A stretch of DNA of 64,000 nt. Origin: Halobacteria archaeon HArc-gm2 (lineage in GTDB: Archaea > Halobacteriota > Halobacteria > Halobacteriales > Haloarculaceae). The stretch lies in NCBI GenBank assembly GCA_025517465.1, contig JAOPKE010000003.1, positions 310,001 through 374,000 on the forward strand, read 5' to 3'. The translations under genes were made by a program, and so were the position numbers. The notes beneath the pieces are model-generated. The model did not search any database. It saw only the letters and a list, made by a program, of their open reading frames with translations, and had not been told where the DNA came from. Positions within the stretch are counted from its first letter, which is position 1; each line of letters starts with the position of its first letter. Positions 12,019 to 56,201 of this stretch are shown here, in pieces.

Positions 12019-12132
12019 ATGAACGAACGAGCGGCACACAGGTGGGTGGCATCGATGAGAACGAACGCGACTGCGGACCGGTTGTTGGCTAACCGGCAGA
12101 CCGGAACGGACGAAGAGCCGGTGATGACATGA
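12019..12132 (+). CDS. Possible 37-residue leader ORF coupled to the giant surface protein
   Basis: An ATG at 12019 opens a 37-codon frame whose TGA stop overlaps the ATG of the giant gene in the arrangement ATGA. The encoded peptide is basic and hydrophilic and I recognise no family. The overlap may be chance. Its last codons supply the GGTGAT (12119-12124) that serves as the ribosome binding site for the giant gene. Confidence 0.2.
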   Translation: MNERAAHRWVASMRTNATADRLLANRQTGTDEEPVMT

Positions 12133-15100
12133 CGCCGGGACGGCCCGTCCGCGTGCTTGCGATGACGATGCTGCTGGTCGTCGCGTCGTTCGCGCCGGTC
12201 GTTCAGCCGGTCGGCGTCGCGAGCGCGGCCAACGCGGGTTCCGGGTCGACGAATCTCGTCACCGACTGCCAGACGATCAGTACACCCGGTCACTACACGC
12301 TCGCGAACGACGTCAGCACGTCGGATTCGAGCAACTGTGTCCAGATCGACACCGACGACGTCACGTTCGACGGCAACGGCCACGTGATCACGTACGTCGG
12401 CAGCGGGAACGGTCCGTCGGCGGTCAGCGTCAGCGGCGGTTCGAACTTCGTCGTCCGGAACGTCACGACCCGGTACTTCTCGACCGGCGTCCGGCTCTAC
12501 GGCGCCGACGACGGCGAGGTTACCCGCGTCACCGTCGAGCCCGAGAGCAGTTCGAACGACCCGGGCGCCAACGCGAACGGCATCGCCCTGTACGCCGGTT
12601 CGGACAACAACCTGATCCGGAACAACGCGATCGACAAGCCCGGACAGTGGGGCGATGCCGGTACCACCGGGAGTGGCATCCTCGTCGTCGACTCCCACGA
12701 CAACGTGCTGGTCGGGAACGACGTCTGGAACCCGTCGGACGTGGGTATCCAGCTGGACGGTGCGTACCGGAACAACCTGACGAACAACGTGGTCCAGGCC
12801 AACTCGTGGGACACCCAGCGAACCGTCCGTAACGGGATCCGCCTCGATTCGGACAGTAACGGGACGACCCTCCATGGCAACTACGTGTACGGACAGAGCT
12901 CTTCCTCGACGCAGGCCCTGCAGGACGGCATCCACGTCGCCTCAGACGACAACGTGCTGACGAGCAACTACGTCCAGAGCGCCTACTGGTCGGGCGTCGT
13001 CGTCTACGGGGTCGGCAACGAACTGGACGGCAACACCGCGACGGGCAACGTCGAGCACGGGTTCGAGATACGGAGCACGGACGTCGTGCTGACGAACAAC
13101 CTCGCCACCAGTAACCGCTACTCGGGTCTCTATCTCGACGGCACTACTGCGGGAACGGTCCTGAACAACACGGCATCCGGCAACAGCGACTGGGACGTCG
13201 AACTCGTCGCCACAGCGGGTCTGGACGCGGAGAACACCGCGCTGTCGTCCGGCGGACCGGGCGTCACGCTCCGCGGCGCGAGCGCCACGATCAAGGGCGT
13301 TATCGCCAGACCAACCCCGGACGACATGGACCACGTCGGCCAGTTCTTCGAGGTCTCCAGGGACCCGACGGTCGACGTCTCCTACACCGACGCGGCGGCC
13401 GCTGGCGTGGCGGAGGAGAACCTCTCGCTGTGGCACTATGACGGGAGTTCCTGGTCGCACTCGGGCGGGAGCGTCGACACCGCCGCGAACGTCGTCTCCG
13501 GGTCGGTGACGTCCGGCATCTACGCGCCCCTCGCGAACGACACGCAAGTTCCGACCATCTCGAACTTCGACGCCACGAGTCCGACCAACGGCGAGCTCCG
13601 GGTGTCGTTCGACGCGGACGAACAACTCGACGCGATCGCGGTGACCCTCGCCAACGAGTCTGGCACGGTCACGACGCTCGACGCGGCCGACTTCACCGAA
13701 TCGGGCGACAGCTCCTTCACGTACGAGAACACCTCGACGCTCTCCCCTGGCTCCTACGACGTGACCCTGGCGACCGCCGCCGACGCGGCTGGCAACGACG
13801 GCGCGAACGGAGAAATGGCGAGTGCGACCGTGTCCGGCGTATTCGAGATCACCGCGTTCGATGCGGTGGACGCCAGGGACGGCGACCGCATCGTCACGGA
13901 CGGCGACGTAGTGGCGCTCAGCGCGACCGTCACCGGACAGAACGTCACTTCGGTCACGACGGACGCCAGTTCGTTCGGCGGTGGGCACGTCACGTACAGT
14001 GACCCCGACGGGGACGGCATCTACGAGGGGACGTTCACGGTCGACAGGCCGTACAACCTCGAGTATCTTCGGGGACTCTCGGTCACGGCCACTGACGACC
14101 TGGGCCGGACCGCGACAGCGACCACGACGCTCGACCTCGACACGACGGTGTACGTCGACGACGTGGTCGTCACCGACCTGGCGGACGGCGACGGGTCAGT
14201 CGGGCACGGTGACAGCGTTCGCGTCTCGGTCGAGGTGACAGACTTCTCGGACCTCACCGTCGTGGGCGGGACGGACGTGCTGGGCGTCCCCAACGTGACC
14301 CTCGTCGACCAGGGGAACGGGTGGTACAACGCGACGGTCACCGTCGACGCGGCGACGGCAGATCCCGACGGTCTCGTGTACGTCTGGGCCAACGCGACCG
14401 ACGCGGCCGGTAACTCGCACGAGCGCCGGTCCAACTACATGTTCATCGACACGGGCGACCTCGATCCGCCGACGGTCACCGACCCGACGGCGACGAACCT
14501 CGAGGGGCCCGACGACGACGTCGATGATGGCGACCAGATCGCGCTCTCAGTGAACGCGACCGACGGCCTCGGCGTCGACGAGGTCACCGCCGACGCGTCG
14601 GCGTTCGGTGCCGGTACGGTCACCCTCACTGACGGCGACGGCGACGGCGTGTACGAGGGGACGTTCACCGTTGACACGGCCACGGCGTCGCCTGACGGTG
14701 CCTACGGGGTCGAAATCAGCGCGTACAACGTGCGGAATCGGCGTTCGATCGAGACCACGAACGAACTGACGCTGGACACGCCCCGCGATCTGACGGCGCC
14801 GACCATCTCGTCGCCATCGTTCACCGAACCTCTCGACGACGGATGGGTCACCGGCGGCGATAGCGTCGCCGTCCGGGCCACCGTTACCGACGCGAAGAGC
14901 GGCGTGGCGACGGTCGAACTGGACGCACGGGACCTGGGTGGCGGCAACGTCACGCTTTCCGACCCCGACGGTGACGACGTGTACGAAGGCTCGTTCACCG
15001 TCGACGCCGCGAACGCCGCGCCCGACGGCTACCAGTCGCTCACCCTGCGGGCGACGGACGTCGACGGCAACGTCGACACGCGCTGGCTGTCGTTGCGCCT

Positions 15101-18100
15101 CGATCGCGCCATCGAGAGCGACGCGACCGCGCCGACCATCAACGAGTTCGACGTGTACTCGAACGAGGGCCGCATCCTCGTGCAGGTCAACGCCAGCGAA
15201 TCGCTCTCCGATCTGGACGTGACGATCCGAAACGAGTCCGGCGTGACCGTCGCGACCCTCGGCGACGCCGTCGACGGCGGGAACTACGGCAGCTACTACG
15301 AGTACTTCCTCAGTCACACGCCCGCGGCAGATGGGGACTACGACGTCACGCTGGAACGGGCCGTCGACCGTGCCGGTAACGACGGCGCTGCGGGCGAGAG
15401 CAAGACGGTGACGGTCGGCGGCGGGATAGTCAAACCGCCCGTTTCGGAGCCTGCGACCGGTATCACCGTCTCCGGCCAGCTACGCGAGGCCGGCGGAGCG
15501 CCCGCGGCGGGCGACTACGTCGTGCTGGTCAACGCGACCGACACCGACCAGTCGATGTCGGTCCCGACCGATTCCAGCGGAAACTTCTCGGCGACAGTCC
15601 CGAAGGGACCGACGTACGTCGTCGTCTACGTCCAGCAGAACGGCTCGGGCGGGCCGGGTCCGGTCGACGGATCGCCCGACGTCGCGTCCCTGGGTACGGT
15701 CGACGACAACGCCACCATCGACCGCACGCTCCCGAGCGCGGCCCCGCTCACGGTCACCGTAGTCCGGGGCGACACTGGCGGGCCGGTCGCCAACGCAACG
15801 GTCGGAATCGCCCCCGACACGACCGATCTACTCGGCATCTTCGAGGGACCGACCGACAGCGCTGGTCACCTGAACTTCGGGGCCAGCGATCGCGACGCGA
15901 TAGAGGTCGCGGGCACTGTTCACCTCCGCGCGACGCCGCCGGCCGGCACGAACCTGACCGCGAACCGGACCGCGTTCGACGTCGACGGACCGACGGACGT
16001 GACCGTCGTCCTCGGGGCACCGACGGCGTCGAACCGGGCGCCGGTCGCGGTGGCTGACTCCTATTCGGTGGACGAAGGCGAGACGCTGTCGGTGGACGCC
16101 CCTGGTCTGCTCGCGAACGACCTCGACCCCAACGGTGACTCGCTCCGCGCGACGCAGTTCGGCCAACCCGACAACGGGACCGTCTCGCTGACGTCGGACG
16201 GCTCCTTCGAGTACGTCCCCGACCCGGGCTTCACGGGGACGGACGCGTTCACCTACCTGATCCGCGACGAACACGACGAGGACTCCGCATACGCCACCGT
16301 CACTATCGCGGTGTTCGAGGACCCGAACCGCGCACCGACTGCCGTCGACGACCACTACACGACCGACGCGGGAGTCACTCTCACGGTGAGCGCACCAGGC
16401 CTGCTCGCCAACGACTACGACCCGGACGGTGATTCGCTCCGGACGGTCGGCTTCAGCCAACCCGACAACGGGACCGCCTCGCTGAACACCGCCGGCGAGC
16501 TAGAGTACGTTCCCGATCCGGGATTCACCGGGACGGATTCGTTCACATACCTGATCGAGGACGACTCGGGGACCGAATCCGGGTACGCGACGGTCACCGT
16601 CGACGTGGCGCCGGATCCCAACCGAGCACCGACTGCCGTCGACGACCACTACACGACCGACGCGGGAGTCACTCTCACGGTGAGCGCACCAGGCCTGCTC
16701 GCCAACGACTACGACCCGGACGGCGATTCGCTCCGTACGGTCGGCTTCAGCCAACCCGACAACGGGACCGCCTCGCTGAACACCGCCGGCGAGCTAGAGT
16801 ACGTCCCCGACTCCGGATTCACCGGCACGGACGCGTTCAGCTACCTGATCGAGGACGACTCGGGAACCGGATCCGGGTACGCGACCGTCACTATCGACGT
16901 CACTGGATCGAATCGCGCACCGACGGCCGTCGACGACCAGTACTCGACGCTCCGTGAGACGAATCTGACGGTGAGCGCACCGGGCCTGCTCGCCAACGAC
17001 TACGACCCGGACGGCGACACGCTCCGGACGGTCGGCTTCAGCCAACCCGACAACGGGACCGCCTCACTGAACACCGCTGGTGAGCTAGAATACGTCCCAG
17101 ACCCCGGATTCGCTGGGACGGACACGTTCAGCTACCTGATCGAGGACGACTCCGGAACCGGATCCGGGTACGCGACGGTCTCGGTGACCGTCGTGGATCC
17201 GACGGGGACAGCGCCGGTCGCGGTCGACGACAGCTACACGACAGTCGAGGGAGTGAACCTCTCCGTGGCTGGGCCCGGAGTTCTCGCGAACGACCTCGAC
17301 CCCAACGGTGACTCGGTCGACGCGGTCAACTTCGGCACCCCGGGTAACGGGACCGTCTCGCTGACGTCGGACGGCTCCTTCGAGTACGTCCCCGACACGG
17401 GGTTCACGGGGACGGACACGTTCAGCTATCGCATCCAGGACGCGAACAGCGAGTACTCCGGGTACGCCACTGTCTCTATCGATGTACAGAAGGACCCGAA
17501 CCGCACGCCGGTCGCCGTTCCGGACTACTACACCACGGTCGAGGGCGTCAACCTGACGGTGAGCGCACCAGGCCTGCTCGCCAACGACTACGACCCGGAC
17601 GGCGATTCGCTCCGGACGGTCGGCTTCAGCCAACCCGACAACGGGACCGCCTCGCTGAACACCGCCGGCGAGCTAGAGTACGTCCCCGACCCCGGATTCG
17701 CCGGCACGGACACGTTCAGCTACCTGATCGAGGACGACTCGGGGACCGAATCCGGGTACGCGACGGTCACCGTCGAGGTGTTCGAGGATCCGAACCGCGC
17801 GCCGGTCGCCGCACCGGATTACTACACCACGGACGCGGGAGTCACTCTCACGGTGAGCGCACCAGGCCTGCTCGCCAACGACTACGACCCGGACGGCGAT
17901 TCGCTCCGGACGGTCGGCTTCAGTCAGCCAGACAACGGGACCGCCTCGCTGAACACCGCCGGCGAGCTAGAGTACGTCCCTGACCCCGGATTCGCTGGGA
18001 CGGACACGTTCAGCTACCTGATCGAGGACGACTCGGGAACCGGATCCGGGTACGCGACCGTCACTGTCGACGTCGTGGGATCGAACCGCGCACCGACTGC

Positions 18101-19472
18101 CGTCGACGACCACTACGCCACGCTCGAAGGCGAGAACGTTACGGTACGCGCACCGGGCCTGCTCGCCAACGACTACGACCCGGACGGCGACACGCTCCGG
18201 ACGGTCGGCTTCAGCCAACCCGACAACGGGACCGCCTCGCTGAACACCGCCGGTGAGCTAGAGTACGTCCCTGACCCCGGATTCGCCGGCACGGACACGT
18301 TCAGCTACCTGATCGAGGACGACTCCGGGTCCGGATCCGGGTACGCGACGGTCTCGGTGACTGTCGTCGACGTGACGCAACCGCGCCGGGCCGCGGTCGA
18401 TACGAACGCCGTCGACTTCGGCGACGTCACGGTCGGCGGAGACGCGTCCGCGACGGTCACGGTGACGAACGTCGGTGGAACGCCGCTCACGCTTTCGGGC
18501 ATCGGCCTCACCAGTTCGGGAACGACGCCGTTCCAGCTCGTCGACGGCGCCGGGACTACGGTGCTCGCGACTGGCGAGAGTCGGGAGATCACGGTCGCGT
18601 TCGAACCGAACGACACCGGGACCGCGACCGGGACGCTCCGGGTCCACACGGACGATTCGACGCGTCCGACCGTCGACGTCTCGCTCTCGGGAACTGGTGT
18701 CGCGGCCAGCGGGAACGGCGGGGGATCATCTACCGGAAGTGGCGGTTCGTCGTCCGGATCGAACGGCGCCAGCGGCTCGGCGCCCACGCCAGGACCGAGG
18801 CAGACCACCGTCGTCCAGTCCAGTTCCGGCCAGACGGACGTCGCTGTCACCAACGCCAGAAACGGAACGGCCGTCTCGGTGAACACGTCGGGCCAGACGT
18901 CCGGAAACGTCTCGCTCGACGGCCTCGATATCACGCCGCTCGTCGACGGCGACTTCACGCTGAACGTCAGCGCGAGCGAGTCGACGCCCTCGGGCGCACC
19001 GTCGTCGACTCCGGCTGGCGAGACTCCCATCGCCTACCTGAACGTAGACCACTCCATCGCCGACGGCGACATCGGCGAGGTGACGTTCCGGTTCCGCGTC
19101 TCGAATGCCACGCTCGCCGACCGTGGTCTCGCACCGGCGGACGTCGTCGTCTACCGCTACCACGACGGCCAGTGGGGGGCGGCCACGATGAACGTCACCG
19201 CAGGGTCGGCCGACGAGTACGTCGTCGAAGCGACCGTTCCGGGGCTGTCGGTGTTCGCCGTCGGGACCGCTGCCGACGCGGCCACCGAGACGCCGACGCC
19301 GGCGGCCACCGCCACGCCACCGCCGACCACAGACGGGGTCACGCCGACCCCGGAAATCGACGACGGCGCGGCCCGGGAACCGATCGAGCAGTCCGGGGTC
19401 CCGGTCGGTGCAGTGCTCGGTGTCCTCGCGCTGGTGGGAGTGGTCGTCGCCGCCTGGTTCACTCGGCGATAG
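12129..19472 (+). CDS. Giant surface protein: beta-helix, Ig-like modules, eight cadherin-like repeats, C-terminal anchor
   Basis: This 2447-residue exported protein starts at ATG 12129 (GGTGAT just upstream) with a Sec-type signal peptide (LLVVASFAPVVQPVGVASA). Order: right-handed beta-helix of the NosD/pectate-lyase type (about 40-400, many NNLTNN-like turns); several Ig-like modules with VYEGTFTVD strands (about 470-1110); a CarboxypepD-like module (about 1115-1290); eight tandem-95/cadherin-like repeats of 97-98 residues, each NRAPxAVDDxY ... GLLANDxDPxGDS ... GFxGTDxFxYLIxD (1302-2080); a choice-of-anchor (ASH) domain (FGDVTVGG); a Ser/Gly linker; a PGF-pre-PGF-like domain; a Thr/Pro-rich stalk; and a membrane helix ending WFTRR. 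A canonical PGF-CTERM motif is not visible. Many N-glycosylation sequons. An adhesin or cell-surface structural role is inferred. Confidence 0.85.
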   Translation: MTPGRPVRVLAMTMLLVVASFAPVVQPVGVASAANAGSGSTNLVTDCQTISTPGHYTLANDVSTSDSSNCVQIDTDDVTFDGNGHVITYVGSGNGPSAVSVSGGSNFVVRNVTTRYFSTGVRLYGADDGEVTRVTVEPESSSNDPGANANGIALYAGSDNNLIRNNAIDKPGQWGDAGTTGSGILVVDSHDNVLVGNDVWNPSDVGIQLDGAYRNNLTNNVVQANSWDTQRTVRNGIRLDSDSNGTTLHGNYVYGQSSSSTQALQDGIHVASDDNVLTSNYVQSAYWSGVVVYGVGNELDGNTATGNVEHGFEIRSTDVVLTNNLATSNRYSGLYLDGTTAGTVLNNTASGNSDWDVELVATAGLDAENTALSSGGPGVTLRGASATIKGVIARPTPDDMDHVGQFFEVSRDPTVDVSYTDAAAAGVAEENLSLWHYDGSSWSHSGGSVDTAANVVSGSVTSGIYAPLANDTQVPTISNFDATSPTNGELRVSFDADEQLDAIAVTLANESGTVTTLDAADFTESGDSSFTYENTSTLSPGSYDVTLATAADAAGNDGANGEMASATVSGVFEITAFDAVDARDGDRIVTDGDVVALSATVTGQNVTSVTTDASSFGGGHVTYSDPDGDGIYEGTFTVDRPYNLEYLRGLSVTATDDLGRTATATTTLDLDTTVYVDDVVVTDLADGDGSVGHGDSVRVSVEVTDFSDLTVVGGTDVLGVPNVTLVDQGNGWYNATVTVDAATADPDGLVYVWANATDAAGNSHERRSNYMFIDTGDLDPPTVTDPTATNLEGPDDDVDDGDQIALSVNATDGLGVDEVTADASAFGAGTVTLTDGDGDGVYEGTFTVDTATASPDGAYGVEISAYNVRNRRSIETTNELTLDTPRDLTAPTISSPSFTEPLDDGWVTGGDSVAVRATVTDAKSGVATVELDARDLGGGNVTLSDPDGDDVYEGSFTVDAANAAPDGYQSLTLRATDVDGNVDTRWLSLRLDRAIESDATAPTINEFDVYSNEGRILVQVNASESLSDLDVTIRNESGVTVATLGDAVDGGNYGSYYEYFLSHTPAADGDYDVTLERAVDRAGNDGAAGESKTVTVGGGIVKPPVSEPATGITVSGQLREAGGAPAAGDYVVLVNATDTDQSMSVPTDSSGNFSATVPKGPTYVVVYVQQNGSGGPGPVDGSPDVASLGTVDDNATIDRTLPSAAPLTVTVVRGDTGGPVANATVGIAPDTTDLLGIFEGPTDSAGHLNFGASDRDAIEVAGTVHLRATPPAGTNLTANRTAFDVDGPTDVTVVLGAPTASNRAPVAVADSYSVDEGETLSVDAPGLLANDLDPNGDSLRATQFGQPDNGTVSLTSDGSFEYVPDPGFTGTDAFTYLIRDEHDEDSAYATVTIAVFEDPNRAPTAVDDHYTTDAGVTLTVSAPGLLANDYDPDGDSLRTVGFSQPDNGTASLNTAGELEYVPDPGFTGTDSFTYLIEDDSGTESGYATVTVDVAPDPNRAPTAVDDHYTTDAGVTLTVSAPGLLANDYDPDGDSLRTVGFSQPDNGTASLNTAGELEYVPDSGFTGTDAFSYLIEDDSGTGSGYATVTIDVTGSNRAPTAVDDQYSTLRETNLTVSAPGLLANDYDPDGDTLRTVGFSQPDNGTASLNTAGELEYVPDPGFAGTDTFSYLIEDDSGTGSGYATVSVTVVDPTGTAPVAVDDSYTTVEGVNLSVAGPGVLANDLDPNGDSVDAVNFGTPGNGTVSLTSDGSFEYVPDTGFTGTDTFSYRIQDANSEYSGYATVSIDVQKDPNRTPVAVPDYYTTVEGVNLTVSAPGLLANDYDPDGDSLRTVGFSQPDNGTASLNTAGELEYVPDPGFAGTDTFSYLIEDDSGTESGYATVTVEVFEDPNRAPVAAPDYYTTDAGVTLTVSAPGLLANDYDPDGDSLRTVGFSQPDNGTASLNTAGELEYVPDPGFAGTDTFSYLIEDDSGTGSGYATVTVDVVGSNRAPTAVDDHYATLEGENVTVRAPGLLANDYDPDGDTLRTVGFSQPDNGTASLNTAGELEYVPDPGFAGTDTFSYLIEDDSGSGSGYATVSVTVVDVTQPRRAAVDTNAVDFGDVTVGGDASATVTVTNVGGTPLTLSGIGLTSSGTTPFQLVDGAGTTVLATGESREITVAFEPNDTGTATGTLRVHTDDSTRPTVDVSLSGTGVAASGNGGGSSTGSGGSSSGSNGASGSAPTPGPRQTTVVQSSSGQTDVAVTNARNGTAVSVNTSGQTSGNVSLDGLDITPLVDGDFTLNVSASESTPSGAPSSTPAGETPIAYLNVDHSIADGDIGEVTFRFRVSNATLADRGLAPADVVVYRYHDGQWGAATMNVTAGSADEYVVEATVPGLSVFAVGTAADAATETPTPAATATPPPTTDGVTPTPEIDDGAAREPIEQSGVPVGAVLGVLALVGVVVAAWFTRR
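16032..18372 (+). repeat. Eight in-frame cadherin-like repeats arranged as two four-repeat blocks
   Basis: Repeat starts (the Asn-Arg-x-Pro codons) lie at 16032, 16326, 16620, 16911, 17205, 17499, 17793 and 18084. The spacing 294, 294, 291, 294 recurs, so repeats 1-4 and 5-8 are offset by exactly 1173 bp each. Repeats 1 and 5 share the DLDPNGDS / VSLTSDGSFEYVPD type; 2-4 and 6-8 share the DYDPDGD / ASLNTAGELEYVPD type. Long stretches are nearly identical in DNA, pointing to recent duplication and gene conversion. Confidence 0.9.
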
Positions 19473-21552: not shown

Positions 21553-21631
21553 GTCCGTGTGTAAGTGACGGGCCGACTAAATGGATGCGGCGCTGGGAGT
21601 GATTGCCAGTTTTTGCGAAGAATGGATGACG

Positions 21632-21914
21632 ACCGCAAACAACCAGAAAGCCCCGACCGGTTCGCCTCCCGCGGCTCGCTGCGCGCTTCCTTCGCTCACT
21701 CCGTTCGCTCAGTGCAGTGCTTAGATCGCCGGGGTTCGGCGAACCGGACGCCCCTTTCAGTCCCGCCCATCTGGAAGTTCCACGGGGCGGGACTGAAAGG
21801 GGCCGGGTACTCGTGAGCCGAAACGACGCAAGCACCGCAGCCGAGCATCGCGAGGTGAGGAGCGCAGCGAGTTGCAGGCCACGAGCGCCCGGGGGCTTTC
21901 TGGTTGTTCGCGGT
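21632..21914. repeat. Large palindromic intergenic element, compact copy
   Basis: The outer arms are 21638-21654 (AACAACCAGAAAGCCCC) and 21892-21908, exact reverse complements; a central 19-bp inverted repeat lies at 21750-21768 and 21785-21803 around a 16-base loop. Between them the two sides remain partly complementary (GGCTCGCTGCGC-like and GTGCTT-like pieces). Core sequences match the longer elements at 28563 and 55652. It lies between the divergent proline dehydrogenase and carS genes. Function unknown. Confidence 0.8.
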
Positions 21915-22001
21915 GTCGTAGTAATTGTTCAAGCCGGCTCCCCGTCCATCTCCCACCCGCACCGAGAAAGCGTTAAGGGGGAGCGAAGAAAGGCCCGGAC
22001 A

Positions 22002-28461: not shown

Positions 28462-28562
28462 TCTGGTTTTCGACATATTTCGGTACGTAGCGGGTACTGC
28501 AGCTATTTCACACGCCCATCGTATTGCCCTCACCAACGGTCTGTGCTTGTGTGAAGTGCTCG

Positions 28563-29005
28563 GATGTTTTGATGGGATAGCGCTGGAAGAAAGGATACCG
28601 CTAACACCCAGAAAGCCCTCAACGTGCTCCGGTCCCGGGGCTCGCTGCGCTCCTCGGCTTCGCCTGCGGTGCTTGCTTCGCCCGGGTTCCCGGAGCCCGC
28701 CTCGCCCTTTCAGTCCACCAGGCACCGCACCGCAGCCTTCCCTCCCCCTGGTCGGCCGACGAGACGGCCTCCCGGCCGACCGCCGGGCGGTTGCGGAGCG
28801 GTCAGGACGCGTGTCGCGCCGCCAGGCGCGACCGGGGAGGTTTGGTGGACTCAATCGCGAGCGCCTCGGTGCGCGAGCAACGCGGATCCTGGCGGAATGA
28901 AAGGGCGAGGTGCGCTCGCCGACGTCCGACGACGTAAGCACCGCAGCGGAGCGAGGAGCGCAGCGAGTCGCACGAGGCGAACGCGCCGAGGGCTTTCGAC
29001 GTGTT
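28563..29005. repeat. Large palindromic intergenic element, 443-bp copy
   Basis: Between GATGTTTTG (28563) and GACGTGTT (ending 29005) the left half reads almost as the reverse complement of the right half. Strong matches are CCTCGCCCTTTCA (28700-28712) with 28898-28910, exact over 13 bp; CTCGCTGCGCTCCTCG with the right arm near 28952-28970; and GAAAGCCCTC (28611-28620) with GAGGGCTTTC. The unpaired centre has its own stems (GACCGC/GCGGTC). It is homologous along its length to the copy at 55652. No plausible protein is encoded. Confidence 0.85.
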
Positions 29006-29113
29006 TGACGTCGTGCTAAGAGCGACAACCCCGGCACCCACCAAACGCTACGTAGCTGATCTATACTGATCGGCAAAAAGAGCTAAGCGTCTGCTCCAGA
29101 GAGTACCCACGGA

Positions 29114-55570: not shown

Positions 55571-55651
55571 TGGCGATGTGTGGGCGTGGCCCCGTGAAAA
55601 AGGCGCTGCCCGCGTGATGTGTGTGGGTGTGTACTGACCGGGTAGTTCGTT

Positions 55652-56094
55652 GATGTTTTGCTGGAAGAAACGAGACCGCCAACAGCCAGAAAGCCCTCGG
55701 CGGGCTCCAGTCCCGGGGCTCGCTGCGCGCCTCACTCCGTTCGGTGCTTGCCTCGCCCGGGTTCCCGGACCCCGCCTCGCCCTTTCATTCCTCCAAGGAC
55801 CGCAGCCCTGCCCTTCCCCTGGTCGCGAGAGCGCGGCGTTGCCGCGCCACTCGCTCCCGGCCGACCGCCGTGCGGTTGCGGAGCGGTCAGGAAGCGTGAC
55901 CCGGAGCGGACGCGACGGGTCCGGGGAGGTGTGGGGAGTCAATCGCGAGCGCGTTTCATCGCGCGAGCGAGGCTGTTCCTGGAGGGCTGAAAGGGCGAGG
56001 CGTGGTCGACGAAGCACGGCGACGTAAGCACCGAACGAAGTGAGGCGCGCAACGAGCCGCGCGAGTCGAGCGCGCCGAGGGCTTTCGACGTGTT
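55652..56094. repeat. Large palindromic intergenic element, second 443-bp copy
   Basis: It shares with the copy at 28563 the ends GATGTTTTG...GCTGGAAGAAA and GCCGAGGGCTTTCGACGTGTT, the CCAGAAAGCCCTC block (55686-55698), GGTTGCGGAGCGGTCAGGA and TCAATCGCGAGCGC. Internal pairing: CCTCGCCCTTTCA (55775-55787) with 55988-56000, exact 13 bp; CCTCCAAGGACCGCAGCC with GGCTGTTCCTGGAGG flanking the centre. It separates panE from the next minus-strand gene. Noncoding. Confidence 0.85.
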
Positions 56095-56201
56095 CGCGTC
56101 GTCATTGACGCCAGTCTCACCGAGTCACCAGATCGTTACAGACACCCCCTACACTGATCGGAGAGTAATCGCCGAGGGCTAACAAGGAGTGCCCGGCTCA
56201 C

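Follow-up and report, generated by a model that had tools for sequence, protein, structure and literature searches.

Outward-facing pairs of a conserved hairpin module form the core of a probable nonautonomous mobile element family in haloarchaea

Animal foldback transposons such as FB and Galileo have long inverted arms with tandem subrepeats. Among haloarchaeal IS6 elements, which fall into archaeal clade A, two IS6 MITEs of 227 and 336 bp have been mentioned (PMC7986276). Haloquadratum walsbyi carries PATEs, which have no terminal inverted repeats (TIRs) and relate to IS605-type elements, and SMRs of about 110 bp (80 bp in HqIRS41), which have no target duplication (PMC3119063). In bacteria, REPINs combine two inverted copies of a palindromic unit across a spacer and are scattered through intergenic DNA (PMC3116915).

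The elements described here, three of which lie in a 64,000-nucleotide stretch of the genome of Halobacteria archaeon HArc-gm2 (the window), resemble each of these systems in part. As in foldback transposons, long inverted arms occur with tandem subrepeats, and many copies carry extra 51-bp tandem tails that repeat GCCGAGGGCTTTC and end in GGGCTTTC; the arms, however, are self-complementary modules, and there is no sign of common descent. Like PATEs and SMRs, the elements are transposase-free, palindrome-rich, high-copy haloarchaeal repeats that are themselves targets of smaller repeats. Unlike both, they have TIRs, together with target site duplications (TSDs) in sister species, and the presence of TIRs excludes membership of the PATEs. 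The architecture of an inverted, spaced pair of palindromic units in intergenic DNA recalls the REPINs, but REPs and REPINs are defined by a 20-40 bp palindrome, a conserved tetranucleotide tag and a TnpA-REP gene, whereas the unit here measures about 104 nt and acquires IS6-type ends in sister species. With IS6 MITEs, finally, the sister-species copies have in common the TIR of a 697-bp IS, 8-bp TSDs, the lack of an ORF and a length of mostly 312-432 bp. They differ in their interior, a conserved pair of hairpin modules whose ends, elsewhere among haloarchaea, are different or missing, and the copies in the window differ further in having another terminal sequence and no detectable TSD.

The complete element A spans 534 bp (28538..29071, + strand). 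An earlier note had delimited it as 28563-29005, a stretch that is indeed palindromic but too short in view of the conserved ends. The right end matches the reverse complement of the conserved terminal sequence GATCAGTATAGATCAGCTACGTAGCG (25.5 bits with the ITR profile). The left boundary (~28538), the less certain of the two, was set by its fixed distance of 73-74 nt from GAAAGCCC and by comparison with the aligned left ends of further copies; in window-type elements, the conserved ends GRTCAGTACAGATC(AACTACGTAGCGATC) sit 73-74 nt outside the palindromic core. This core begins with a left hairpin module (28612..28716, - strand), which reads outward and is recognized by its local fold and by our covariance model R1 (97.8 bits, E 2e-20). 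It is followed by a central domain of about 177 bp, the CGGCCGACCGCCGGGCGGTTGCGGAGCGGTCAGGA region (28717..28893, +), which was delimited in an alignment of 30 copies and defines the orientation of the element; its inverted repeats bear out the proposal that the center has stems of its own. The right hairpin module (28894..28996, +) again reads outward and folds locally (R1 103.2 bits, E 1.2e-21), and a terminal segment matching the ITR profile (28998..29071, +) supplies a conserved end resembling a terminal inverted repeat. Each module follows the plan GGACTGAAAGGG...hairpin...GGGCTTTC over about 104 nt, with GGACTGAAAG...GGGCTTTC as the preferred strand.

Homologs of A had been noticed at 55652 and, in compact form, at 21632, and both proved to be members, with A, of a genome-wide family. 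Element B (55616..56159, +) has the same plan as A, with a left module at 55690..55791 (-, R1 91.9 bits), a right module at 55984..56085 (+, 98.4 bits), a right end placed by its terminal-sequence match, and a 127-nt inverted arm that is 80% complementary. Element C (21600..21957, +; ends approximate) is also recognized by its R1 modules, at 21646..21763 (-, 98.0 bits) and 21790..21900 (+, 84.2 bits), but a 26-nt spacer replaces the center, which measures about 180 bp in A and B. According to the covariance model, the window holds exactly six modules, forming three outward-facing pairs; the next match reaches only 13.8 bits. Elsewhere in the window, a 2447-aa ORF (12129-19472, +) contains eight tandem repeats of about 294 bp at 16038-18389 (98-aa units, 64-77% alike); its product is probably a large, repeat-rich protein of the surface or adhesin-like kind.

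The window genome (G000; 4.25 Mb in 18 contigs) contains at least 150 modules by the covariance model, and copy number within the genus ranges from 21 to at least 150. A BLAST search scored 40 full-length matches among 250 candidates, and the 12-mer CCGAGGGCTTTC has 197 exact copies, compared with one for the reversed control. The 30-copy alignment and a profile search showed the arms to be individually palindromic and to occur also singly or as close pairs. Three contig starts of this assembly (C1:42, C3:44 and C6:155) coincide with repeat copies, so that the family breaks the draft assembly.

Which pairing is conserved within these elements? The earlier note had read the locus as one giant hairpin in which the left 150 bases pair with the right 150. 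The complementarity is real: an exact 13-bp stem joins CCTCGCCCTTTCA (28700-28712) with TGAAAGGGCGAGG (28898-28910), as had been stated, ungapped inverted arms of 65 and 54 nt are 74-75% complementary, and the 534-nt element folded as RNA reaches -295.7 kcal/mol (z = -8.4 versus dinucleotide shuffles). If the giant hairpin were selected, however, the arms of one element should be more complementary to each other than to foreign arms. This is not the case, since left-right complementarity among 22 elements is 0.776 within and 0.786 between elements (permutation p = 0.95), and we reject the arm-to-arm hairpin as a selected structure. The two halves pair because two self-complementary modules stand in inverted order. 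In element A, then, a center is framed by two copies of a ~104-nt self-complementary module, both facing outward, and no single giant hairpin is selected.

Compensatory change, which the earlier note had proposed to look for between the arms, is found within each arm instead. In 58 diverse modules, 93.5% of cells are paired, compared with 67.9% for shuffled partners and 32-52% when the partners are slid; 18 of the 19 base pairs have changed on both sides, and double changes occupy 241 cells where shuffles predict 71. Further counts gave double changes in 19 of 23 and 18 of 25 predicted base pairs. Some unpaired letters within the fold are nearly invariant, which is not what would be expected if the palindromes were simply corrected against a template. 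The module fold is therefore strongly conserved and kept by abundant compensatory change, which is also compatible with folding at the DNA level. Two further features of the modules are worth recording. At 28894-28996 and in all modules, conserved G tracts lie on either side of the outer stem and extend into it (GGnGG-ACTGAAA-GGG ... GGG-CTTTC), and it is conceivable that they form a G-quadruplex (GGnGGGACTGAAAGGGG...GGGG) at high intracellular potassium. In several modules (L004, L007, L024 and L310), the terminal loop holds small hairpin-rich inserts, GGTTCGAGAGAGC...CTTTCGAACGAC (in L310 at about 1215-1265 and 1865-1930), which resemble the palindrome-targeting SMR repeats of Haloquadratum.

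The modules also favor one strand. There are two inner types within one common outer stem, T1 and T2, the latter being the type of the window. G.U outnumbers A.C by 77:17 in T2, where two alignment columns give over half of the G.U counts, and by 20:4 in T1; in full elements with the arms read outward, the ratios are 9:2 on the left and 6:0 on the right. The better-folding strand is the forward one in all 35 T1 copies and in 85 of 113 T2 copies. One single-stranded form, RNA or ssDNA, thus appears to be under selection. Given that G.T is tolerated in DNA hairpins as well, the strand signal neither proves RNA nor separates it from ssDNA, and of the earlier suggestion of a structured RNA, the covarying fold and the strand preference stand while the nature of the strand does not follow from them. 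A one-strand preference would suit ssDNA transposition equally well, with the hairpin as the substrate of a Y1 (TnpA) transposase in the manner of REP/REPIN or IS200/IS605 elements. Such a system would agree with imperfect palindromes paired in inverted order, whether the spacer is short or long, and with solo modules across many genera, yet we regard it as improbable: sister-species copies possess true TIRs and 8-bp TSDs, which IS200/IS605 elements lack, and modules of about 104 nt far exceed the 20-40 bp of REPs.

How far do the modules extend? The search of this and other haloarchaeal genomes that the earlier note had proposed returned many copies and an order-wide module. Of the 146 genomes of the order, 67 contain the pattern ACTGAAAGGGN{70,100}GGGCTTTC and the other 79 lack it as a strict motif; the reversed control matched nowhere. 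A slightly stricter pattern occurs in 19 of 53 genomes inside the order and in none of 242 genomes sampled from the rest of the phylum. In a scan of GTDB species genomes, all of the at least 80 module loci among the matches listed are haloarchaeal. Solo modules are widespread through the order, in many genera; at high stringency, no relatives of the full element were found in 23 sampled genomes outside the genus, so the unit in common is the module. T1 and T2 occur together in single elements of sister species, and elements of G001 and G003 (L341, L347, L351 and others) contain one of each, in either order. The right arm of B belongs to T2 in the window genome, whereas the orthologous arm in G006 is of type T1; together with the mixed elements, this indicates that modules have been exchanged or shuffled between elements. 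We tentatively raise the possibility that haloarchaea harbor structured single-stranded modules forming an order-wide family not described before. Its members would come in two or more interchangeable inner types within an invariant outer stem (ACTGAAAGGG...GGGCTTTC), would be independent of any one transposon family, would sit on different ends in different lineages and would themselves function as RNA or ssDNA.

Could the module serve the host? Under this alternative it would be a haloarchaea-wide structured RNA, such as a 3'-UTR element, a processing site or a regulator, that transposons have picked up as vehicles. The order-wide spread of solo modules, the strong covariation with conserved unpaired letters and the strand preference would all be expected of such an RNA. 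The genomic setting speaks less clearly. None of 30 elements overlaps a predicted gene, and 3 of 198 modules do so in other genomes; divergent gene gaps are under-represented among module sites, and the sense bias in co-directional contexts (61:40), which would favor a host RNA, is weak (p 0.046). This gene-context pattern is as expected for tolerated insertions and not for a dedicated transcription terminator, a role that we reject on the weakness of the orientation bias. Moreover, paired modules point in opposite directions, and the module is patchy at orthologous loci as well as among genomes of the order. Rfam 15 gave no match above the gathering score in the window, which rules out a known Rfam family and further disfavors a host RNA; lax settings at five loci returned chance-level matches only, and a literature search by sequence words yielded only unrelated matches, none found to contain the module sequence. 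On balance, we consider a host-function RNA unlikely.

The most direct evidence for mobility comes from sister species. Module pairs in G001 and G003 are bounded by perfect TIRs, GTGTTCAGATAAG, a 13-mer that occurs 59, 39 and 11 times in G001, G003 and G002, respectively. Four bases outside this 13-mer, 14 of the 23 bounded copies show a perfect 8-bp direct repeat in register, so that the complete TIR reads G[GA]T[AC]GTGTTCAGATAAG and the target is duplicated over 8 bp. Two 312-bp copies that are 99% identical occupy different sites with different TSDs. A 697-bp IS6-family IS in G004 (PF13610, IS240/IS6-type DDE domain) has the same TIR and TSD length as the module-pair elements, in keeping with published traits of archaeal IS6 elements (PMC7986276). 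Short IS6-family ISs of this size in a sister species (697 bp; L359 1208-1904, L369 and L372) are flanked by the 8-bp duplications GTGTGGCG, GATTCGAA and TCCTCAGT. With a TIR in common with an autonomous IS6-family element and an 8-bp TSD, the sister-species module pairs are IS6-type MITEs. For the family, this gives good support to the earlier suggestion of a nonautonomous mobile element, and in sister species the support is direct, through TIRs, TSDs and near-identical dispersed copies.

The window copies have different, older ends. Among 50 window-type cores, no TSD was found in register; old copies may have lost theirs. PF13610 has zero matches in the window genome, and a search of 77 family genomes for an IS with the window-type end gave four exact matches in three genomes, none of them identified as an IS. 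This end has a GG tip and CAGAT in common with the IS6-like TIR (GGTCAGTACAGATC), and no IS with such an end was found. Consequently, the IS6 route applies to the sister branch and can at most be inferred for A. The search for empty sites that had been recommended gave a divided answer. Copy C has no counterpart at the orthologous site of G006, whereas A and B are present in both genomes (copies 74-77% identical, flanks >90%), so that recent movement of A is not indicated. At one Haloarcula site, the module is present in 4 species, 8 others have no intact module and 2 more retain a degenerate left part; absence at an orthologous site could be due to deletion, as some Haloarcula sites keep decayed remnants.

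Many dispersed intergenic copies might also be expected of a chromosome-organizing palindrome or a protein-binding site kept for nucleoid structure, a role that the earlier note had considered and for which we found no positive evidence. Gain and loss at orthologous sites, the wide range of copy number within the genus and an arm-to-arm pairing that is not maintained make this reading very improbable.

Taken together, we propose that copy A is likely a nonautonomous mobile element of MITE/foldback-like type, belonging to a haloarchaea-specific family whose core is the inverted, outward-facing pair of ~104-nt modules. In sister species, such pairs move as cut-down transposons with the ends of an IS6-family IS, leaving 8-bp duplications. 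In the window genome, copies may have spread earlier by the same general route with different ends, and would now be mostly old. Folding of one strand may reflect a single-stranded hairpin, RNA or transient ssDNA, that aids the element's own maintenance or, alternatively, makes the element less costly for the host, for instance because flanking transcripts are shielded. The giant hairpin, itself unselected, is a consequence of the inverted arrangement.

The mobile part of this system is a variant of MITE/foldback-like elements, and what deserves further study is the module with its maintained fold. This module lies in hundreds of haloarchaeal intergenic regions and is not in Rfam, and the family explains breaks in draft assemblies and many unannotated haloarchaeal spacers. 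With a covariance model at hand, a clear mobile context and a transposase identifiable in sister species, it offers a test case for why a transposon keeps a folded single strand by compensatory change.
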